Origin: Flammeovirgaceae bacterium | Lineage (GTDB): Bacteria > Bacteroidota > Bacteroidia > Cytophagales > Cyclobacteriaceae | Reading direction: 5' to 3' | Assembly: GCA_027487845.1 (NCBI GenBank) | Contig: JAIYCV010000042.1 | Coordinates: 248,001-312,000, forward strand | DNA: 64,000 nucleotides | Shown: one piece after another, positions 20,149 to 48,532 of the stretch | How the letters are laid out: each line of letters begins with the position of its first letter | Position numbering within the stretch: the stretch's first letter is position 1 | Position numbers and translations under genes: made by a program | The notes under the pieces: generated by a model | What the model was told of the DNA's origin: nothing | Database searches by the model: none | Seen by the model: only the letters and a program-made list of their open reading frames with translations

Positions 20149-21177
20149 TCAATTTGTGTTAGATTCATCTAACGGTCTCCATTCCCAAATATCATCGTAG
20201 TATTGCGATCCTGCTTCTCCCAAGCCAACGTATGCCTTTCCTCCCGTTACAAACCAAATTGCATTTTGCCTAACCGACCCTTCAAAATTACTTCTTTGAG
20301 TCCATTTGTAAGTTGTTGGATCTAGTTCATAAATAGAAAGCGTAAGCGAAGGGGCCGCTCCCAAGGCCATATATCCATAATTGTTAAATCCAAAAAATAC
20401 CGCATTGCTCCTTCTCACAGCTGTTTTGAAGTCTGAATAATCTTCATCATTTGTAGCGGGAGTGCGACTGGTCCAAGTTGTGGTAGTAGGATCAAATTCC
20501 CAAATATCTGAAATATACAACCCGTTGTTTTTACCCCCCGCGAGCATCATCTTACCGTTCAAAACAAATGCAGAAGCCCCCTCTCTCTTATCTCCTGCAT
20601 AGCTCACAATTTCTGTCCAAGTATCTGTTCCAGGCGTATACTTCCAGAAATCACCGAACCAGCTAGTTCCATCATATCCGGTGCCCAAGTAACCATTTTC
20701 GCCAATTCCTACCGACACCACATTGTACCTTCTGCCACCCGGAAAATCTTTCAACTGCGTCCATTTGTTGGCAGCCGGATCATATTTCCAAAATGTATTT
20801 AGTTGCTGTGCAACGCCACTATTATTTCTATTGTAGCCCAGCCCCACATATCCATTTCCACCAACACTAAATGCGGTTGCCCGCTCGCGTAAATTATCGT
20901 TGTTAGTTCCAGTGGGGAAACTTGCCAACGCTTTCCAAATTCCTCCATCTAACACATAAAAATCGGAAAGATAACCGGTGCTATTGTACCCCAAGCCAGC
21001 GTAAACTTTTTCGCCAATGGTGAAAGTAACTAGCCCTGTTCTCGGCACACCTTTAAACGGTATTGATTTAACCCAATCGCCTTGGGTAGTAGTGGTGGTG
21101 TTATTGGATCCACATGACTGCAGTGTTATAAAACCTACAATTAGACCCAAGAGAAGAAACAATTTAATTGATTTCAT
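20149..21177 (-). CDS. Kelch-repeat beta-propeller lipoprotein
   Basis: Secreted lipoprotein. A signal peptide ends in LQSC (lipobox, Cys22). About six kelch-like repeats follow, each with a short hydrophobic-glycine strand such as KVYAGLGYN, NGYVGLGYN, NGYLGTGYD and KAYVGLGEAG, and conserved Trp in W(K/T)xL. The likely form is a single propeller on the cell surface or in the periplasm. Length 342 aa. It follows the DUF4270 gene by 26 bases, so the two are probably cotranscribed and may work together. Ligand unknown. Confidence 0.85.
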   Translation of the reverse strand: MKSIKLFLLLGLIVGFITLQSCGSNNTTTTTQGDWVKSIPFKGVPRTGLVTFTIGEKVYAGLGYNSTGYLSDFYVLDGGIWKALASFPTGTNNDNLRERATAFSVGGNGYVGLGYNRNNSGVAQQLNTFWKYDPAANKWTQLKDFPGGRRYNVVSVGIGENGYLGTGYDGTSWFGDFWKYTPGTDTWTEIVSYAGDKREGASAFVLNGKMMLAGGKNNGLYISDIWEFDPTTTTWTSRTPATNDEDYSDFKTAVRRSNAVFFGFNNYGYMALGAAPSLTLSIYELDPTTYKWTQRSNFEGSVRQNAIWFVTGGKAYVGLGEAGSQYYDDIWEWRPLDESNTN

Positions 21178-21203
21178 TTTTTAGTAAAATTCAGAGTGTA
21201 TTA

Positions 21204-22520
21204 TTATTTATTCTGTGGAAGTGTTACGAAGTAAAGGCTTAATTTCATTTTGTACTGGCTTCTGGCATCGCCAACCGCTAGCCTTGCAATTGTATTTCTA
21301 AAATTAGTATCATTAATTATAAAAAGTAAGCCATTATCGTTGTCAATGTCGGTTAACATTTGCTGATTAACAAAACTTGTAATATCCACACTATATCGTC
21401 TACTCCTCTCAAGGTTTTCGTTGTCATCAACTAATACGGCAGTGTATGTATTGTTTGTCAAAATAGAATTTTGCTTGTCCACTATGTATCCAGTCAGGGC
21501 TAATGGAATAGGCGTAGTTTTGGTTTTGTAGCCTTGAATAGGGATCATCTCCAAAACGGCACTGGAAGCTGAGAATCCTGCATCGGTAAGTAAAAGATTC
21601 CTTAAATGCGGAATTTGAACTCGTATCCCCAGCCCAGTACCCGACTGCAGGAAAGCCGTGTTGGAAGTTTTTTTTGAATTAACCGGATTCTTAAGTGTAG
21701 TCAACTCATTCAACACCGTAGCACTTCTATCGGCCACGATACTATTATATGTAATCACTGAAGATGTTGAGAAAGATTGATATCTTCGTTTGCTTGGCAA
21801 CACCGATTTATCGTAATAATAAAGTCTCATTTCAATGGAAGGATTTATCCCTAAAAAACATGCATTTTGGTTTTTATCAGGAAGAATTGCCAACCCTTTC
21901 AAATAGTTTAGAAACTGATCTGAATTTGTAACTTTTTCATCTCCCTTTTGCATTAGATCGAATAGTTCATTTCCTAAAACGTCAGAAAGAGGTATTTCAA
22001 TACTATCCTTGGTATGCAAAGGCCGAGCTTCGAAAGAAAGGCTTCCCAACGGATTTGTATCAATTTTAAAGCTACTGGTGTTATATCTTCCGCCACTATA
22101 AAGCTTAATTTCGTCTGTTACCCGATGAACATTCACTGAATGCAAAGCAGAAGTATCGTAATAATAGTAGCCGCTGGTTCGTATTGTCAGCCTTAACGCT
22201 TCATAGGAAGTAAAATTTTTATCGAGTTGGGAAATTGACCTTGAACTCAATTGAAAAACTGGCGTGGCTGTTACGGTTCCTAATTTTTCATCTGTATGTC
22301 GACCTAAAAGGAGCTTATCAGGAGCATTGGTTCTCAAACTGTCAAATAACACTGTTGACACATCCAACGTAAGCGTATCAGTAACACCAATGTCAAAAGC
22401 ACTGCTCTGAACAAAGTCAGCTCCCAAATTTGAAGTTTGGTCATTACAACTAAAGCAAATGCTTACAAGCATTAGCTTCGCTACTGTGACCAAATCAGAT
22501 ACTTTTAACTTTATATCCAT
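21204..22520 (-). CDS. DUF4270 family lipoprotein
   Basis: Lipoprotein of a Bacteroidota-specific family. The N-terminus has a hydrophobic segment ending ICFSCNDQTSNLGADF, so Cys25 is the lipobox cysteine and the following LGADF is typical of the family. The rest is beta-rich and serine/threonine-rich, and suggests an extracellular or periplasmic domain. Length 438 aa. A strong promoter lies at 22535-22567. It precedes the kelch lipoprotein. Molecular function is unknown. Confidence 0.85.
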   Translation of the reverse strand: MDIKLKVSDLVTVAKLMLVSICFSCNDQTSNLGADFVQSSAFDIGVTDTLTLDVSTVLFDSLRTNAPDKLLLGRHTDEKLGTVTATPVFQLSSRSISQLDKNFTSYEALRLTIRTSGYYYYDTSALHSVNVHRVTDEIKLYSGGRYNTSSFKIDTNPLGSLSFEARPLHTKDSIEIPLSDVLGNELFDLMQKGDEKVTNSDQFLNYLKGLAILPDKNQNACFLGINPSIEMRLYYYDKSVLPSKRRYQSFSTSSVITYNSIVADRSATVLNELTTLKNPVNSKKTSNTAFLQSGTGLGIRVQIPHLRNLLLTDAGFSASSAVLEMIPIQGYKTKTTPIPLALTGYIVDKQNSILTNNTYTAVLVDDNENLERSRRYSVDITSFVNQQMLTDIDNDNGLLFIINDTNFRNTIARLAVGDARSQYKMKLSLYFVTLPQNK

Positions 22521-22733: not shown

Positions 22734-22766
22734 TTTAATGACTTTCACTTCACTTAATTATCTTTG
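22734..22766 (+). promoter_or_regulatory. Promoter of the outer-membrane barrel gene
   Basis: TTTA at 22734-22737, 21-base spacer, TATCTTTG at 22759-22766. The -7 box is perfect. The inferred start lies roughly 9 bases before ATG 22782, which also argues against the TTG start at 22764 used in the ORF track. Confidence 0.5.
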
Positions 22767-22781
22767 CCGCTTAATACAACT

Positions 22782-24023
22782 ATGAAATTGCTAAAAATAG
22801 GTGGTTCTATACTTCTTTTGGTTACGCTTATTACCACTCAACCCAAGGCGCAAGATGTTTCGGGTTCTGTTTATTCAGTTTATGGCATCGGTGACCTGAA
22901 ATGGAAAGGATCGGCCTTAAATAGGGTGATGGGTGGAACTGGTATTGCCGTTAGAGATATTTATAACTTAAACACGGCCAATCCTGCCGCCTATTCCGCA
23001 ATCGCCTCTCCTGTTTCTAAACTTTTCGAATTTGGTGGATACTCTGAAAACAACACGTTTAGAAACTCATCGTCTTCTACCAATTATCAAGCAGGTACGA
23101 TTTCTAGCTTAAATTACTGGTTTAAATTTTCTCCAAAGTTTGCAGGTGTTGCGGGCATTGCTCCACTAAGCAGCTCTTCTTATAACGTAACGAGCAACCA
23201 AGCCATTTCAGCCGGAGCTAGCTTAATACCCGTAAACTATGAAGGCAGCGGAGGGTTCAACCAGTTTTATTTGGGTAGTTCCTTTCAAATCATAAAAAAC
23301 TTAAGCATCGGGGTAAATGCCTCTTTAATCTTAGGATCTATCAACAAAAAGGCAATTACTGGTGCCAATTCTTTTAGCGGGGCACTTGAATCTAACACAA
23401 AACTTTTCGCACAAGGAGCAAATTTCGATGCTGGCATTCAGTATTTTTTTAATATTAAACAAAGTCAATTTACATTTGGAGCTACTTATAAAACGTCAAC
23501 TAAGCTAAATGGATATAACCAAACGGTTTTAACGACACTTTCTTCCGGATCAACTAGAGAAACAGATAAACTTTCCGTCAACTACACTTTGCCAAAACAA
23601 TATGGAGTTGGCTTTTCATATATGCGTAAAAGAATCGTTCTCGCAGCCGACCTTTCTTTTCAAGAATGGACAAAAGCAAAACTTGAAAATGGGGCAATCA
23701 CAAAAGATGTTTTTCGATACTCATTTGGCGGAGAGTTTAAAGGTAATTTGGAGACAAGTAATTACTTAAAAGCCATTAGTTGGAGAGCGGGGTATCATTT
23801 ACAAGACTATTACATCATAGTTAGAAACACACAGTTGTCGAGTTCGGGATATACTATTGGAGCAGGTTTGCCTCTGAATGGAAACTTTGCCACTGTTAAT
23901 GTAAATTATTCGTTCACTAATTTTGGAACAACAAGCAATGGGCTTGTGCAGCAAGAATCGAATAAGCTTTCTATCGATGTTATCATTCGCGACATTTGGG
24001 GTATCAGGCGAAAGTTCGATTAA
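22782..24023 (+). CDS. Outer-membrane beta-barrel protein (OmpP1/FadL-like)
   Basis: A signal peptide (MKLLKIGGSILLLVTLITT) ends near PKAQD, followed by amphipathic strands with alternating aromatics and an aspartate/phenylalanine end (RRKFD), as in outer-membrane barrels. The segment ALNRVMGGTGIAVRDIYNLNTANPAAYS resembles the start of FadL/OmpP1-type proteins. Start moved to ATG 22782 because the promoter box overlaps the upstream TTG. Length 413 aa. Its stop overlaps the convergent ribD stop. Cargo unknown. Confidence 0.75.
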   Translation: MKLLKIGGSILLLVTLITTQPKAQDVSGSVYSVYGIGDLKWKGSALNRVMGGTGIAVRDIYNLNTANPAAYSAIASPVSKLFEFGGYSENNTFRNSSSSTNYQAGTISSLNYWFKFSPKFAGVAGIAPLSSSSYNVTSNQAISAGASLIPVNYEGSGGFNQFYLGSSFQIIKNLSIGVNASLILGSINKKAITGANSFSGALESNTKLFAQGANFDAGIQYFFNIKQSQFTFGATYKTSTKLNGYNQTVLTTLSSGSTRETDKLSVNYTLPKQYGVGFSYMRKRIVLAADLSFQEWTKAKLENGAITKDVFRYSFGGEFKGNLETSNYLKAISWRAGYHLQDYYIIVRNTQLSSSGYTIGAGLPLNGNFATVNVNYSFTNFGTTSNGLVQQESNKLSIDVIIRDIWGIRRKFD

Positions 24024-39572: not shown

Positions 39573-39919
39573 CAGTTGAGTTTGTTATCAGGCGTAGGGA
39601 AAATCAATGTTGGCTTAAATGCTTTTCCTTCTTCAAAATCGATTGAAGCATATGAAATTATGATAACAATATCACCGACTGCGGCCTTTCTTGCTGCAGG
39701 GCCATTGAGACAGATCATACCTGAATTTCGTTCGCCTTTAATTACATAGGTTTCCAATCGCTCTCCGTTGTTCACATTCACAACCTGTACCTTTTCACCT
39801 TCAATTAAATTGGCGGCTTGCATGAGGGCTTCATCAATCGTAATGCTACCTACATAATGTAACTCAGCTTGAGTGATTCTTACTCTATGTATTTTGGACT
39901 TTAATATCTGAATGGTCAT
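39572..39919 (-). CDS. panD: Aspartate 1-decarboxylase
   Basis: Makes beta-alanine for pantothenate. The self-cleavage site is Gly24-Ser25 in HYVGSITID, exactly where PanD is processed to form the pyruvoyl group. The sequence [17 protein letters not shown] near residue 50 is family-typical. Length 115 aa. It overlaps panC by 4 bases (ATGA), which couples the two enzymes that supply and use beta-alanine. Confidence 0.97.
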
Positions 39920-40761
39920 ACTAAAAATATATTGTCGATCAATCTCACCTCTCCCACGTATCCTGAAATCAGCAAAATGGAATCTTTTGGATCGAGAACG
40001 AAATTTAATGAGATTAAGTTTTTGCGATCCGCTAATTCAATGTATTCAAGTTTTACTTGGTTTTCTTCAAAAAAATTAATTGTCTTTTCTCTTACAATCG
40101 TCATTTCAATTCCGTCTAACAATAAATTCTTCGCAAGCTGTAACGAGTTGTATAGAGTTAATGCCTTCAATCGCATTTCTGGTGCCAGCCTTAAATTGCG
40201 TGACGACATGGCTAGGCCATCTTCTTCGCGAACGGTAGGAACGCATTCCAACTTAACAGGGAACATAAGTTGCTCTACAAGCGATGAAATAACTTGAAAC
40301 TGCTGATAGTCCTTTTGGCCAAAATATGCCTTTGTAGGTTGAATAATGTTGAAAAGCTTAGAAACAACAAGGCCGACACCGCTAAAATGCCCTGGCCTGA
40401 ATTTCCCTTCTAAAATTTTATCAAGCCCACCAAAATCAATTTTTATTGGATTTGCGGCCGAATACATTACTTCATTAGAAGGAAAGAATAGGATATCGCA
40501 GCCAGCTTGGTTCAAAAGGGCAACGTCTTGTTCAAAAGTTCGGGGATATTTTGCTAGATCAGACGGGTTATTGAACTGTGTTGGGTTTACATAAACAGTT
40601 GCAATCGTAAGATCATTCTCTTTTTTTGAAGATTTTATCAGCTCCAAATGCCCTTTATGCAGAGCCCCCATGGTTGGCACAAGACCGATTGAATTGACGG
40701 AATTCCGCCTTTTAAAATCCAAAAAAGCCCTTATGGGCTCAACTTCTTTAAAGATTTCCAT
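39916..40761 (-). CDS. panC: Pantothenate synthetase
   Basis: ATP-dependent joining of pantoate and beta-alanine. The nucleotide-binding HxGH lies in [15 protein letters not shown] (residues 27-41). [10 protein letters not shown] near 149 and AMSSRNLRL near 184 complete the pattern. The first Met of the ORF track is a TTG at 40764, so I use the ATG at 40761 (281 aa). It heads the minus-strand panC-panD-flippase-rfaE2-peptidase operon. Confidence 0.97.
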
Positions 40762-40784
40762 CAAGGCTTTTTCCTAAAGGGGTG

Positions 40785-40813: not shown

Positions 40814-40844
40814 TTGAATACGGGGTGAAATTTGAGTACTTTTG
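40814..40844 (+). promoter_or_regulatory. Promoter of the GT5-like gene
   Basis: TTG at 40814-40816, 20-base spacer, TACTTTTG at 40837-40844. This is a full -7 match with a good -33, leading to ATG 40884. It overlaps the divergent panC promoter region. Confidence 0.5.
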
Positions 40845-40883: not shown

Positions 40884-41690
40884 ATGTCAAAAATCCGTAT
40901 TCTATACGTAGCCAGTGAGATCAATCCGTTTCTGCAAACTACTGAAGTGTCAGATTTTGTGAGAAAGTTGCCCCAAGCCATGCAAGAAAGAGGGATGGAA
41001 ATTCGGATTCTGGTGCCACGTTTTGGTTTGATCAATGAACGGAAGAACCGTTTGCATGAAGTTGTAAGATTATCTGGTATCAATATCTCGGTGGGTGATG
41101 AGGAAAAACCGCTAATTATCAAGGTAGCTTCTATTCCAAACGCCAAATTGCAAGTGTACTTCATTGATAATGAAGATTACTTTCATCGCAAATCAGTTTT
41201 TCATGATAAGGAAAACCGGTTTTATGAAGATAATGACGAAAGAGCCATCTTCTTTTGCAAAGGAGCCATTGAAACCGTGCGTAAACTGGGCTGGTCTCCT
41301 GATATTGTTCACTGCAACGATTGGATCACCAGCTTCATTCCATTATATTTAAAGACAACGTATAAAAACGATCCGTTGTTCAAAAACACAAAAACCATTT
41401 TTACTATTTATGATAATAGCTTCACCCATAAATTTAAGGGTGACTTACTCGGTAAAGTGAGAATGCTGGATATCGAAGACAACATGCTCGGTCATTTAAA
41501 GACAGCCGACTATGAAGGCTTTGTTAAACTAGCCGCTCAATTTTCCGATTCGGTATCAGTGGCTGGAGAGAACAACAAAAAGCTCGAAGGGCTGATGAAA
41601 AAAATTAAAGAGAAGAAAATTGAATCGATTGAATCAGACGATACGTGCACCGAATCGTATTACAATTTGTATAACGAATTGGTCAGTTAG
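40884..41690 (+). CDS. Half-length glycogen/starch-synthase-like protein (GT5 N-domain only)
   Basis: The start KIRILYVASEINPF and later SPDIVHCNDWITSFIPLYL (near residue 138) match the N-terminal Rossmann domain of GlgA. True GlgA has a KTGGLADV loop right after the ASEIxPF stretch; here it reads LQTTEVSDFV, so the ADP-glucose lysine and glycines are missing. The protein ends at 268 aa and has no C-terminal GT-B domain. Glycogen synthesis is therefore unlikely; it may be a regulator or scaffold. It lies next to panC and glmS and ends before a strong terminator. Confidence 0.8.
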   Translation: MSKIRILYVASEINPFLQTTEVSDFVRKLPQAMQERGMEIRILVPRFGLINERKNRLHEVVRLSGINISVGDEEKPLIIKVASIPNAKLQVYFIDNEDYFHRKSVFHDKENRFYEDNDERAIFFCKGAIETVRKLGWSPDIVHCNDWITSFIPLYLKTTYKNDPLFKNTKTIFTIYDNSFTHKFKGDLLGKVRMLDIEDNMLGHLKTADYEGFVKLAAQFSDSVSVAGENNKKLEGLMKKIKEKKIESIESDDTCTESYYNLYNELVS

Positions 41691-41719
41691 TTCTTTTTCA
41701 AACGATAGAAAAGATAAAG

Positions 41720-41751
41720 TCCCAACTAGGTTACTCTAGTTGGGATTTTTT
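41720..41751 (+). terminator. Intrinsic terminator after the GT5-like gene
   Basis: Perfect 10-base stem TCCCAACTAG/CTAGTTGGGA (41720-41729, 41736-41745), six-base loop, then six T. It separates the GT5-like gene from glmS, which starts at 41775. Confidence 0.9.
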
Positions 41752-41774: not shown

Positions 41775-43613
41775 ATGTGTGGAATAGTTGGATACGTTGG
41801 CTTTCGTCAAGCGCAGGAGGTAGTAATTAAAGGACTAAAAAGACTTGAGTACAGGGGGTATGACAGTGCCGGGATAGCATTACTCAATAACAATAAGCTA
41901 TCCGTTTACAAGAAAAAGGGGAAGGTTTCAGAATTAGAAGGTTTTATAAAGGACAAAGAGCTCACAAGCACCATCGGAATGGGGCACACACGATGGGCAA
42001 CCCATGGCGAGCCGAATGACGAAAATGCACACCCTCATTATTCAGCCACTAAAAAACTAGCGATAATCCATAACGGTATTATCGAAAATTACAGCGCGCT
42101 CAAACAAGACTTAATTAAGAAGGGCCATACCTTCTTAAGTGAAACTGACACAGAGGTTTTCATTCATTTTATTGAAGACATAAAAGAAAAAGAAAAATGT
42201 ACATTAGATGAAGCGGTGAGGCTGGCACTTACTAAAGTAGTAGGTGCGTATGCAATCGTTGTCATTTCGTTGGAAGATCCTTCGCTATTAATCGCTGCTC
42301 GCAAAGGCAGCCCGTTGGTCGTTGGTGTTGGTAAAAATGAATTCTTCTTAGCTTCCGATGCCACACCTATTATTGAATACACCAACGAAGTTGTCTATTT
42401 GAATGATCAAGAGTTAGCCATTATTAACAATGGTAAGCTAACGATTAAGAATATAGCTAACCTTCCTTTAACTCCTTACATCCAAACGATAGACCTTGAA
42501 TTAGATGCAATTGAAAAAGGTGGTTATGATCATTTTATGATCAAGGAAATATTCGAACAGTCACGATCCATAAAAGATTGCTTGCGTGGAAGGCTTGACT
42601 CTTCTAGCGGAAGACTGGTGCTGGGAGGCTTGCGCGAATATCTTAATAAACTTGTGAATGCTGACCGGATCATCATTATTGCTTGCGGAACTTCTTGGCA
42701 CGCTGGTCTAGTAGCGGAATATTTCTTTGAAGAATTTTGTCGGATACCGGTTGAAGTAGAGTATGCTTCGGAATTTAGGTATAGAGATCCGGTAGTGCGC
42801 GAAGGAGATGTTGTTATTGCCATCTCACAATCGGGTGAAACAGCTGATACGTTAGCAGCGATCGAACAAGCTAAATCGAAAGGCGCAATTATTTTTGGGG
42901 TTTGTAATGTGGTCGGCTCATCCATTCCAAGAGCAACGCATGCTGGAGCGTACACACATGCCGGCCCTGAAATTGGTGTAGCAAGTACAAAGGCTTTTAC
43001 TGCACAACTAACGGTGCTAAATATGATTGCCCTAATTGTGGCGCAAAAGAAAGGCACCATCACAGAACAAAAATTTCATGAGCTATTGGTGGAAATGGAG
43101 AATCTTCCAGCAAAAGTAGAAAAGACTCTTTTGCTGAATGAAAAGATAAAAGAGATTGCATACACCTTTAAAGACTCTACTAACTTTTTATACCTAGGAC
43201 GGGGTTACAATTTCCCAGTAGCACTTGAAGGCGCGTTAAAATTAAAAGAAATTTCGTATATCCATGCAGAAGGATATCCAGCAGCTGAAATGAAACACGG
43301 CCCTATTGCACTAATCGACAAAGAAATGCCTGTTGTGTTTATCGCGACAAAGGATAGTTCCTACGAAAAAATTGTTTCAAACATTCAAGAAGTAAAAGCA
43401 AGAAAAGGGCGAATTATTTCTATTGTCACGGAAGGCGACACTACAATTCCTGCGATGTCAGAATTTGTGATCGAAGTGTCAGCAACACTTGAGCCCTTGA
43501 TGCCATTAATTTCAGTGCTGCCTTTACAACTTCTTTCTTACCACATCGCGGTCATGCGCGGTTGTAATGTTGATCAGCCACGTAACTTAGCCAAATCTGT
43601 AACGGTTGAGTAA
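41775..43613 (+). CDS. glmS: Glutamine-fructose-6-phosphate aminotransferase
   Basis: Makes glucosamine-6-phosphate, the entry to UDP-GlcNAc. It starts MCGIVGYVG, so the nucleophile Cys is residue 2 before Met removal, with RYRGYDSAG-type motifs near 28 and GHTRWATHG near 73. Two SIS domains follow (ACGTSWHAG near 305, LYLGRGYNFPVALEG near 475), and the C-terminus NLAKSVTVE is diagnostic. Length 612 aa. No glmS ribozyme can fit in the 23 bases after the upstream terminator. Confidence 0.97.
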   Translation: MCGIVGYVGFRQAQEVVIKGLKRLEYRGYDSAGIALLNNNKLSVYKKKGKVSELEGFIKDKELTSTIGMGHTRWATHGEPNDENAHPHYSATKKLAIIHNGIIENYSALKQDLIKKGHTFLSETDTEVFIHFIEDIKEKEKCTLDEAVRLALTKVVGAYAIVVISLEDPSLLIAARKGSPLVVGVGKNEFFLASDATPIIEYTNEVVYLNDQELAIINNGKLTIKNIANLPLTPYIQTIDLELDAIEKGGYDHFMIKEIFEQSRSIKDCLRGRLDSSSGRLVLGGLREYLNKLVNADRIIIIACGTSWHAGLVAEYFFEEFCRIPVEVEYASEFRYRDPVVREGDVVIAISQSGETADTLAAIEQAKSKGAIIFGVCNVVGSSIPRATHAGAYTHAGPEIGVASTKAFTAQLTVLNMIALIVAQKKGTITEQKFHELLVEMENLPAKVEKTLLLNEKIKEIAYTFKDSTNFLYLGRGYNFPVALEGALKLKEISYIHAEGYPAAEMKHGPIALIDKEMPVVFIATKDSSYEKIVSNIQEVKARKGRIISIVTEGDTTIPAMSEFVIEVSATLEPLMPLISVLPLQLLSYHIAVMRGCNVDQPRNLAKSVTVE

Positions 43614-45201: not shown

Positions 45202-46863
45202 CTATTTACTAACCTCCTTCGCCCACATGTCATTCAAAGTAACAGCTCGGTTAAAGATCAATTTATCTTTGGTTGAGTCTTTGTCTAATACAAAATATCC
45301 CTTCCTTAAAAACTGAAATCGTTCCATTTCGGTTGCGCCAGCAATCGCTGGTTCTGCATACACGTTCGGTAACACCGACAATGATTCCGGGTTAATATAA
45401 TCTTTAAAATCCCCCTCGGCAATTGACACATTCTCTACTTTAAAGAGCCTATCATACAACCTTACCTCAACACCTAAAGCATGACTGGCACTCACCCAAT
45501 GCAAAACACCTTTTACTTTTATTCCTGATACGTCTGAGCCGCTTTTACTCTCTGGAACGTAACTGCAATGGACCTCAACTATGTTTCCGTTGCCATCTTT
45601 TATTACCTCATTACATTGGATTATATAGGCGCTCTTCAAGCGCACCATCTGCCCTGGCGCCAATCGGAAATATTTTTTTGGTGGCTCTTCCATGAAATCT
45701 TCGCGCTCGATGAACAATTCGCGCCCGAAAGGAATATCACGACTACCTGGATTATCATGATCTTCCGGATTGTTTTCGCTTGCTAAAATTTCCGATTTAT
45801 CTTCAGGGTAATTGGTAATCACTACTTTTAACGGATCAAAAACTACCATTCTTCTGGTAGCCACCTTGTTCAGATGATCGCGCACACAAAATTCCAACAA
45901 ACCCACGTCAATTAAATTTTCACGCTTGGCAATTCCAATCTTGTCACAAAACTGGCGAATGCTTTCGGGCGTGTAGCCTCTTCTTCGAACGCCAGCCAGC
46001 GTGGGCATACGAGGGTCATCCCACCCGGCAACGTGTTTTTCATTTACCAGTTGAAGCAACTTACGTTTGCTCATAATAGTATACGTCATGTTCAATCTGG
46101 CAAACTCATATTGATGTGAGGGGTAAATAGAAAGCTTCTCTATAAACCAATCATATAAAGCGCGATGCGGAACAAATTCAAGCGTACAAATACTATGCGT
46201 AACATTTTCGATGGCATCACTTTGACCATGTGCGAAATCATACATAGGATAAACGCACCAATTATTGCCAGTGCGATGATGGTGAGTATGCTTTATCCTG
46301 TACATCAATGGATCTCGCATGTGCATGTTAACATGTGCCATGTCTACTTTCGCTCGTAGTACTTTCTCGCCATCTTTGTATTTGCCTTCCTTCATTTCGG
46401 CAAACAGCCTTAGATTTTCTTCGATACTCCTATCCCGATAAGGGCTGTTTACCCCCGGTTGCGTGGGTGTGCCTTTTTGTTTTGCTATCTCTTCACTGGA
46501 ACTGTCATCCACATAAGCAAGACCTTTAGTGACTAATGTTACCGCAAACTGATAGAGTTGCTCAAAATAATCGGAAGCGTAAAGTTCTTGTGCCCAATTG
46601 AAACCAAGCCACTTAATATCATTTTTGATACCTTCCACATATTCCGTTTCCTCTGTAACAGGATTGGTATCATCAAATCGTAAATTAGTTTTACCTCCGT
46701 ACTTCAATGCCAACCCAAAATTTAAACAAATACTCTTGGCATGACCCATATGGAGATATCCGTTCGGCTCGGGTGGAAAGCGGGTTATAATGCTTTTATA
46801 TTTACCTGAAGCCAAGTCGGCTTCGACAATCTCTTCGAGAAAATTTAAACTCTTTTCGTCCAT
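45202..46863 (-). CDS. glnS: Glutaminyl-tRNA synthetase
   Basis: Class I synthetase charging tRNA-Gln. The HIGH motif is HMGH in PPEPNGYLHMGHAKS (near residue 31) and KMSKS is MSKRK in TIMSKRKLLQLV near residue 262. The C-terminal beta-barrel anticodon domain is complete. I start at ATG 46863 (MDEKSLNF, 553 aa); the ORF track's 25 extra residues lie over the promoter box. Its presence shows that this organism charges Gln directly. Confidence 0.96.
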   Translation of the reverse strand: MDEKSLNFLEEIVEADLASGKYKSIITRFPPEPNGYLHMGHAKSICLNFGLALKYGGKTNLRFDDTNPVTEETEYVEGIKNDIKWLGFNWAQELYASDYFEQLYQFAVTLVTKGLAYVDDSSSEEIAKQKGTPTQPGVNSPYRDRSIEENLRLFAEMKEGKYKDGEKVLRAKVDMAHVNMHMRDPLMYRIKHTHHHRTGNNWCVYPMYDFAHGQSDAIENVTHSICTLEFVPHRALYDWFIEKLSIYPSHQYEFARLNMTYTIMSKRKLLQLVNEKHVAGWDDPRMPTLAGVRRRGYTPESIRQFCDKIGIAKRENLIDVGLLEFCVRDHLNKVATRRMVVFDPLKVVITNYPEDKSEILASENNPEDHDNPGSRDIPFGRELFIEREDFMEEPPKKYFRLAPGQMVRLKSAYIIQCNEVIKDGNGNIVEVHCSYVPESKSGSDVSGIKVKGVLHWVSASHALGVEVRLYDRLFKVENVSIAEGDFKDYINPESLSVLPNVYAEPAIAGATEMERFQFLRKGYFVLDKDSTKDKLIFNRAVTLNDMWAKEVSK

Positions 46864-46885
46864 CGACCAATGAAATTTTAAGTTG

Positions 46886-46893
46886 CAAAGGTA
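46886..46893 (-). promoter_or_regulatory. -7 element upstream of glnS
   Basis: Minus-strand TACCTTTG, a perfect TAnnTTTG, 23 bases before the glnS ATG at 46863. No clear -33. Confidence 0.4.
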
Positions 46894-46973
46894 TAAAGGC
46901 TTTTTGGTTGGTTTTGAAATAATTTTAGAAAGAAACAATACTCAAATCGAGGCTAATATTGTCAATCATCTTT

Positions 46974-46981
46974 TACCTTTG
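46974..46981 (+). promoter_or_regulatory. -7 element upstream of gltX
   Basis: Plus-strand TACCTTTG, identical to the divergent glnS box, 18 bases before ATG 47000. No clear -33. Confidence 0.4.
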
Positions 46982-46999
46982 TTAGCCAAAAACTAAAGC

Positions 47000-48532
47000 A
47001 TGACCAAACCCGTTCGCGTTCGTTTCGCACCCAGCCCAACAGGTGCACTTCACATCGGTGGGATACGTACAGCGCTTTACAACTACTTACTTGCCCGCCA
47101 AACTGGCGGCACCATGATACTTCGCATTGAAGACACCGACCAAAACCGTTTTGTGCCAGGTGCCGAAGAATTTATCATCGAATCGCTAAAGTGGGTCGGC
47201 ATTGCAATAGACGAAGGGCAAAGTGTGGGCGGCCCTTATGCACCCTATCGGCAGTCGGAGCGAAAGCACCTTTACAAAAAATATGTGGATCAATTGATTG
47301 CTTCCGCGAAAGCATACTACGCCTTTGATAGCGAAGGCGAAATCGAGGCCATGCGCATCCGATTAAAAGCCGAAGGCAACGATAACCAACAATATGGCAT
47401 TCATTCAAGGTTATCCATGCGCAACTCGCTTTCGTTGAGCGAAGCCGAAACGACCCAGTTGCTGGAGTCGGGTGCGCCTTACGTGATACGCGCAAAAATT
47501 GAAAGCGGTCACCAAGTAGTGGTAAACGACCTTACCCGCGGAAGCGTAACAGTTCAATCAGACACACTGGATGATAAAGTATTAATGAAATCAGACGGAA
47601 TGCCGACCTATCATTTGGCAAACGTGGTGGACGATTACTTAATGAAGATATCGCACGTAATACGAGGCGAAGAGTGGCTACCTTCAGCACCACTACATGT
47701 CTTACTTTACCAGTATTTGGGTTGGCAAAATGAGATGCCAGAGTTTGCGCATTTACCACTCTTACTTAAGCCCGATGGCAATGGCAAACTCAGCAAGCGT
47801 GATGCAGATAAAATGGGTTTTCCTATTTTCCCACTTACGTGGAAGGATCCTCATACCGGTGAAGTGGCAACTGGATACAGAGAAGCCGGATATTTACCCC
47901 AAGCTTTAATTAATTTCCTTGCCTTCTTAGGATGGAACCCTGGTACTGAACAAGAGATTTTCTCTATGACGCAGCTGATTGATTCGTTCGCCATACAACG
48001 GATTGGAAAGGCCGGAGCGAAGTTCGATATACAAAAAGCGCAATGGTTCAATCAACAGTATTTACGCGGCAAATCAAACGAAGAGCTCGCTATCTACTTG
48101 ATGGATTCATTATCAAAAGAAAACATCAATTGCAGCAATGCTGTGGCTGAAAAAATCTGTGGCTTGTTAAAAGATAGAGTAACATTCCCGCAAGACTTTT
48201 GGTTGCAAGGGAAATTCTTTTTCAAAGCCCCCACAAGTTATGATGAACAAGTCACAAATAAGAAGTGGACTCAGGAAGCTGTGACTGTCCTAACTCAATA
48301 CGCTAATCAAATCAAAAAGTCAGACACTATAACCGCTGATGTTGCAAAATCTATTCTCGAAAAAGTTACCAGTGAATTAAACGTAGGTACGGGAAAAATA
48401 CTTCAGCCGTTGAGGGTATCGATAACTGGTGGTGCTTCGGGGCCTGACCTAATGGCGACCATAGAAGTGTTAGGCGTTGAAGAAGCAACTAAAAGAATTG
48501 AACATGCGTTGAAAACCATACCGATAAAATAA
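47000..48532 (+). CDS. gltX: Glutamyl-tRNA synthetase
   Basis: Class I synthetase for tRNA-Glu. The N-terminus RFAPSPTGALHIGGIRTALYNYL (about residues 8-30) is the GltX signature, and KLSKRDADKMGFP near residue 263 is the KMSKS loop. An anticodon-binding alpha-helical C-domain follows. Length 510 aa. It leads an operon of five genes with overlapping or near-touching ends. It is head-to-head with glnS, with mirrored TACCTTTG boxes. Confidence 0.97.
   Translation: MTKPVRVRFAPSPTGALHIGGIRTALYNYLLARQTGGTMILRIEDTDQNRFVPGAEEFIIESLKWVGIAIDEGQSVGGPYAPYRQSERKHLYKKYVDQLIASAKAYYAFDSEGEIEAMRIRLKAEGNDNQQYGIHSRLSMRNSLSLSEAETTQLLESGAPYVIRAKIESGHQVVVNDLTRGSVTVQSDTLDDKVLMKSDGMPTYHLANVVDDYLMKISHVIRGEEWLPSAPLHVLLYQYLGWQNEMPEFAHLPLLLKPDGNGKLSKRDADKMGFPIFPLTWKDPHTGEVATGYREAGYLPQALINFLAFLGWNPGTEQEIFSMTQLIDSFAIQRIGKAGAKFDIQKAQWFNQQYLRGKSNEELAIYLMDSLSKENINCSNAVAEKICGLLKDRVTFPQDFWLQGKFFFKAPTSYDEQVTNKKWTQEAVTVLTQYANQIKKSDTITADVAKSILEKVTSELNVGTGKILQPLRVSITGGASGPDLMATIEVLGVEEATKRIEHALKTIPIK

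Follow-up and report, generated by a model that had tools for sequence, protein, structure and literature searches.

A glycogen synthase-like protein inferred to be a pseudoenzyme is nearly universal in the class Bacteroidia

The gene analyzed here, designated GT5s for its short GT5 product, lies in a stretch of 64,000 nucleotides of a Flammeovirgaceae genome (contig JAIYCV010000042.1; hereafter the window) and is annotated in other databases as a glycogen or starch synthase. Our analyses indicate that it most likely encodes a catalytically dead, single-domain descendant of GlgA, a cytosolic protein that binds, scaffolds or senses a core component of the cell, a reading to which we assign a probability of about 0.6. 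GT5s is a pseudoenzyme in which the fold has been kept under purifying selection and the catalytic residues have been lost, its inactivity being inferred in the absence of activity data. It is nearly universal in the class Bacteroidia, and this is a property of the whole family. What the present study adds to a first-pass annotation of the same DNA is the retained C-terminal helix, the linkage to bamH, the single origin and the near-universality.

Results

The GT5s gene and its flanking signals

As the first-pass annotation had stated, GT5s is an intact gene, which starts with ATG and runs as a single ORF to a product of 268 amino acids (Table 1). Its described alignment with the start of GlgA, including the VASEINPF stretch, is likewise borne out: the Pfam profile of the starch/glycogen synthase N-domain (PF08323) covers residues 5-225 with 200.7 bits. 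The top NCBIfam models are GlgA-type synthases, of which the PRK14098 starch synthase is the best, and they align only over the first 175-245 residues; every NCBIfam synthase model scores far under its cut-off. The solved structures closest to GT5s by sequence are GT5 synthases. The terminator previously assigned to the gene is real. The promoter that had been called good is plausible but weak, as no E. coli-type promoter was found in a search upstream of GT5s and the Bacteroidota-like pattern is no more frequent in the window than expected by chance. The possibility that a second domain is hidden by a frameshift, which had been named as a refuting condition, is ruled out: only 84 nt separate the GT5s stop from glmS, the GT-B C-domain profile had no match anywhere in the window, and the short length is conserved among relatives. 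Elsewhere in the window (45202-48532), genes for GlnRS-type and GltX-type synthetases are located back to back in divergent orientation.

Table 1. Positions of GT5s, its sequence features and the related genes in the window.
Feature	Position	Strand	Basis
GT5s, short GT5 pseudoenzyme gene	40884..41690	+	268-aa ORF; PF08323 200.7 bits; clade and length conservation
Lost donor-binding loop: QTTEVSDF (codons 18-25) at the place of GlgA KTGGLADV	40935..40958	+	Alignment with E. coli GlgA, 35 full-length orthologues and 20 canonical GlgA
Hyperconserved block, codons 37-147	40992..41324	+	56 short sequences including 8 from endosymbionts
YD (codons 176-177) at the place of GlgA active-site H161-N162	41409..41414	+	Column comparison
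GlgA-type C-terminal crossover helix YxxLYxxL, codons 255-267	41646..41684	+	Motif statistics; Y263; helix in model
Possible Bacteroidota-type promoter TTG-N20-TACTTTTG	40814..40844	+	Sequence reading; pattern at chance frequency in window
Intrinsic terminator between GT5s and glmS, 15-bp hairpin and T-run	41716..41751	+	Fold z = -4.85
panC, divergent neighbor of GT5s	39916..40764	-	ORF; neighbor conserved in Bacteroidia
glmS, downstream neighbor of GT5s	41775..43613	+	ORF; neighbor conserved in Bacteroidia, also in Blattabacterium-like genomes
bamH (DUF4270 surface lipoprotein), usual operon partner of GT5s	21204..22520	-	PF14092 75 bits; PDB 9hjm_G DUF4270 chain
bamG (FadL-like outer-membrane protein), divergent from bamH	22764..24023	+	PDB 9n2d_B 'Bam G', E 2.5e-36

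Loss of catalytic residues

The GlgA residues K15, G17, G18, D21, H161 and N162 show no variation among 35 full-length orthologues and 20 canonical GlgA proteins, and D137 is present in 97-100% of them. Among 48 short members, K15 persists in 12% and a glycine at position 17 or 18 in none; D137 has become G in 56%, and H161 has become Y in 64% and is kept in 10%. At the active-site positions of GlgA the window protein carries Q18, T20, E21, Y176 and D177, with D24 and D146 kept. The alignment confirms that LQTTEVSDF stands where GlgA has KTGGLADV, and the KxGGL donor-binding loop expected of a GlgA is not present (QTTEV). Profile searches detected the C-terminal Rossmann domain with the donor site neither in GT5s nor in the window. 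The earlier statement that the protein ends before this domain therefore holds for the domain itself, which is absent, and fails for the C-terminal crossover helix of GlgA, which is still there.

The proposed search for a full-length glgA elsewhere in the genome was carried out and gave none, the sole PF08323 protein of this genome being GT5s, and no GlgC match above the cut-off was found in it. With the donor loop, the active-site residues and the second domain gone and no GlgC above cut-off, the view that the 'glycogen synthase' label is misleading is well supported. From the residues that are missing we infer, enzyme activity not having been assayed, that GT5s cannot be a glycogen synthase. 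On contig C4 of the same genome (4038-11793, locus L218), TreS-maltokinase-like, GlgB and GH57-like genes are found in a row, without GlgC or GlgA.

Distribution and single origin of the short form

The relatives of GT5s at the best 80 loci in public genomes are 67-89% identical to it and 264-292 aa long. Of a spread of 118 good Bacteroidia genomes, 116 carry a short homologue, its open frame measuring about 256-336 aa, and the protein is short in all 114 short-form loci compiled; both the length and the loop loss, whose conservation in Bacteroidota homologues the first-pass annotation had left to be checked, are conserved across the class. Short forms also occur beyond Bacteroidia, in genomes inferred to be Rhodothermia/Balneolia-like, and in deeper members of the phylum the orthologue has its full length (about 492 aa) and an unaltered KTGGLADV. 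The 48 short rows of an 87-row maximum-likelihood N-domain tree all fall on one side of a single branch (support 100/100), and the clade they form sits inside a 67-row group (100/97) that also contains full-length orthologues and is separate from canonical GlgA. Since the short forms make up a single clade, one ancestral event produced them, and the tree places the loss of the second Rossmann domain once, in the ancestor of the sampled short forms. In a Chlorobium-like genome (G056; L182, L206), the sole GT5 protein is full length but carries VRISALADF in place of KTGGLADV; loop loss there appears to be independent of the short clade.

Full-length GlgA terminates with the motif YxxLYxxL, and the same motif is found at the tail of 31 of the 48 short members, compared to 34 of 9600 shuffled tails. 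Y263 is present in 94% of 56 short sequences, those of endosymbionts included, and residues 255-267 form a helix in the structure model of GT5s. This model is of moderate confidence (pLDDT 76.9); its best Foldseek match is 3cop (E 9.8e-15), and the best PDB matches are all glycogen/starch synthases. The retention of the GlgA C-terminal helix implies an internal deletion, which removed the second Rossmann domain and spared the crossover helix that is predicted to pack on the N-domain, a packing that remains unchecked on coordinates.

Conservation and the basic surface

Over residues 1-160, the median identity to the window protein at the best 80 loci is 88.8%, compared to 74.1% for GlmS, 48.8% for PanC and 34.6% for an LPG-synthase-like protein at the same loci. 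The dN is about 0.03 and dS is mostly saturated, so that only dN and a few close pairs were usable, and not dN/dS ratios. As judged from these comparisons, GT5s is under strong selection and not a relic. Within the hyperconserved block, R41, P45, L57, H58, V60, R62, L63, K80, V81, Q90-F93, N96, R102, R120, W137, P139 and H143 are invariant in 56 short sequences, and nine basic positions of the R41-H143 core (R41, R53, H58, R62, K80, R102, K103, R120 and H143) are invariant or nearly so. This cluster suggests an anionic partner or ligand, such as a nucleotide, a phosphosugar, RNA or an acidic protein, but there are no binding data. Fixation of R41, R53, H58, R62, R102 and R120 extends to the full-length orthologues but not to canonical GlgA, which suggests that a second function predates the domain loss.

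Linkage to bamH and the BAM complex

The usual gene order in Bacteroidia is panC (divergent), GT5s, a DUF4270 gene and glmS. Two reports identify the DUF4270 protein as the surface lipoprotein BamH of the Bacteroidota BAM complex (Bt4306, PMC12578637; Fjoh_0823, PMC12611786). With the BamH of the window as seed, a bamH gene of the same orientation was found to follow GT5s directly at 99 of the 114 short loci, and the full-length gene at 3 of the 6 full-length ones. Its start often lies inside the GT5s stop region (gap of -17 in many Cytophagales), and in Rhodothermia/Balneolia-like genomes GT5s, bamH, bamG and a TPR gene form one run. This raises the possibility that GT5s works in the cytosol solely in the service of outer-membrane biogenesis, for instance in controlling the synthesis or delivery of BamH and BamG, in which case its position at the start of the bamH unit would reflect this task. 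The use in F. johnsoniae of the promoter of fjoh_0824, which lies one gene upstream of bamH fjoh_0823, to express BAM subunits would fit with it (PMC12611786). However, in the window bamH and bamG adjoin each other 18 kb from GT5s, and in their available portions the two 2025 BAM papers (PMC12611786, PMC12578637) do not mention the gene or name its product as a BAM subunit. An envelope location is not supported either, as the N-terminus is already the first Rossmann strand (residues 5-9), which leaves no room for a signal peptide.

Within 20149-22520 (minus strand), immediately 3' of bamH, the window encodes a kelch/beta-propeller protein whose start (SCGSN) resembles that of a lipoprotein. 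The BamI protein of the B. thetaiotaomicron BAM complex has a six-bladed propeller, and by this analogy the kelch protein may be the Cytophagales counterpart of BamI. At the full-length loci L179-L182, a gene for a GmhB-like HAD phosphatase starts 2-6 nt after glgA, followed in some by a BamH-like lipoprotein gene.

Retention in endosymbionts

We then considered a family of Flavobacteriales with very small genomes of about 0.6 Mb and 0.3 Mb, including Blattabacterium-like ones. GT5s looks intact in 53 listed genomes of this family and is a remnant with stops in one (G692); those that keep it include some 50 Blattabacterium-like genomes of 0.5-0.6 Mb and three symbiont genomes of 0.3 Mb. BamH (PF14092) was found in 0 of 56 endosymbiont-like genomes, of which 53 have an intact GT5s; the two genes are thus not co-inherited here. 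BamA is absent from the GT5s-bearing genomes G684 and G708, while BamA without GT5s is seen in G598 and G613. Four GT5s-bearing genomes, G410, G684 and G708 (0.3 Mb) and G688 (0.5 Mb), have no GlmS. A role solely as a BAM accessory is therefore rejected, as is a role solely as a GlmS regulator. Dedication to outer-membrane biogenesis is also disfavored by these genomes and we regard it as unlikely; GT5s shares a transcription unit with bamH in most genomes, yet functions without BamH, GlmS and BamA.

Profile searches of two complete GT5s-bearing genomes (263,431 and 344,793 bp) detected no GT-B C-domain, GlgC, GlgB, GlgX or TreS. Because GT5s is retained where no glycogen gene exists, and given the 89% median identity of its first 160 residues, the earlier proposal that the protein has been repurposed gains support. 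GT5s is not strictly indispensable, since it was lost in G598 and G613 and has decayed in G692. The listing leaves out 20 genomes without a match, probably about ten of them of this family, and loss in the smallest genomes is therefore commoner than the listed genomes indicate. Only eight genes differ between G684 and G410, which have GT5s, and G692, which does not; there is no clear partner candidate among them, and none can be deduced from three genomes because one loss event is too few. In a published comparison, glgA is present in Uzinura and absent from Walczuchella (PMC3971599), and the genes that separate G684 from G692 (dnaB, folC, mutL, queA, sodA-like) match the list given there for Uzinura.

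Discussion

GT5s shares with GlgA the N-terminal Rossmann domain with its VASE start, the HCNDW motif, the C-terminal YxxLYxxL helix and the predicted fold. It differs from GlgA in lacking the second Rossmann domain, the KTGGL loop, H161/N162 and a GlgC partner, and in having an extra conserved block (RFGxINERxxxLHEVxRLSG / KVASIPxAxLQVYFxDN). The nearest proteins in the tree are full-length Ignavibacteria/Kapabacteria-like GlgA orthologues (L002-L031, L179-L184), some of which precede a BamH-like gene; they have R41, R53, H58, R62, Q90, R102 and R120 in common with GT5s but are about 492 aa long with a complete active site including KTGGL. Like other glycosyltransferase-derived pseudoenzymes, GT5s has kept its fold and is strongly selected without catalysis, but it is without the entire donor domain, and its family spans nearly the whole phylum.

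We propose that the ancestral full-length GlgA had, besides its enzymatic activity, a second and non-enzymatic role exerted through the surface of residues 41-143. As the tree and the retained helix show, one event removed the second Rossmann domain and left the N-domain and the C-terminal helix, after which the donor and acceptor residues drifted while the surface of residues 41-143, which sets the full-length orthologues apart as well, remained near invariant. The short protein would have kept only the non-enzymatic role; in most of the phylum it is made from the bamH transcription unit, and it functions independently of BamH. Its retention even in tiny insect-symbiont genomes without glycogen genes means that it probably has an unknown basic job in the cell. 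Against this proposal, K15 equivalents persist in 12% of the short members, the model is of moderate confidence and the conserved patch has not been mapped on coordinates; moreover, no partner, ligand or phenotype is on record.

Alternatively, GT5s could bind or sense a small molecule (a sugar nucleotide, a phosphosugar, a glucan or another compound) and report to a partner such as GlmS, as its glycosyltransferase fold, its invariant basic residues and the neighboring glmS, also in Blattabacterium-like genomes, would allow. A photo-crosslinking vitamin B12 probe enriched the B. thetaiotaomicron protein BT_4307 in two independent screens (log2 2.6 and 1.1) without follow-up in the main text (PMC8941943). 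This is an unvalidated proteomics entry, however, and with the residues for binding ADP-glucose and the acceptor lost and GlmS missing from four GT5s-bearing genomes, we consider a dedicated sensor doubtful. Alg13/Alg14 are a precedent for a split glycosyltransferase, and the intact N-domain of GT5s could be the acceptor half of such an enzyme with the donor domain on a separate polypeptide. This is very unlikely and largely refuted, as no GT-B C-domain was detected in the two complete small genomes or among the neighbors, H161/N162 and the KTGGL loop are lost, and GT5s supplies in cis the C-terminal helix by which the N-domain is closed. A working glycogen synthase, as the database label and the PF08323 match would have it, can practically be dismissed for a protein without donor domain, KTGGL and H161/N162 that falls far under the NCBIfam synthase cut-offs and occurs where no other glycogen gene exists. 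A decaying relic, which the lost active site and domain might indicate, is refuted by a dN far below dS in a near-universal protein of conserved length that is better conserved than PanC.

In the literature, BT_4307 goes under the name of 'putative glycogen synthase' (PMC10797578, PMC8941943) and has been cited as evidence for glycogen storage by B. thetaiotaomicron (PMC10797578). Its identification as the GT5s orthologue is based on its locus tag next to Bt4306, its annotation and the conserved gene order, without a sequence comparison. The Uzinura copy is listed as 'glgA, glycogen biosynthesis' (PMC3971599). A P. gingivalis Tn-seq paper, consulted for essentiality, leaves the gene unnamed in its main text. 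In the open-licence papers searched, without supplements, we found no account of the truncation, the single origin, the bamH link or the retention in symbionts as a pseudoenzyme. The protein is nonetheless already in the databases under a wrong name, and earlier notice elsewhere is not excluded.

The 'glycogen synthase' label thus misleads published work on B. thetaiotaomicron and Uzinura. The family illustrates clearly how an enzyme can be deprived of its catalytic half in a single event and thereafter be conserved more tightly than an ordinary biosynthetic enzyme. More tentatively, and with less than even confidence, GT5s may be a previously unrecognized, nearly phylum-wide cytosolic housekeeping protein, essential or nearly so in free-living species, whose invariant basic surface acts in a core process linked to outer-membrane assembly without depending on it. 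Nearly all members of Bacteroidota, a major phylum of the gut and the environment, keep GT5s, as do Blattabacterium-like symbionts and some of the smallest bacterial genomes. Together with its place at the head of the bamH unit, this makes it a strong candidate for a core component of the phylum that has so far been missing.
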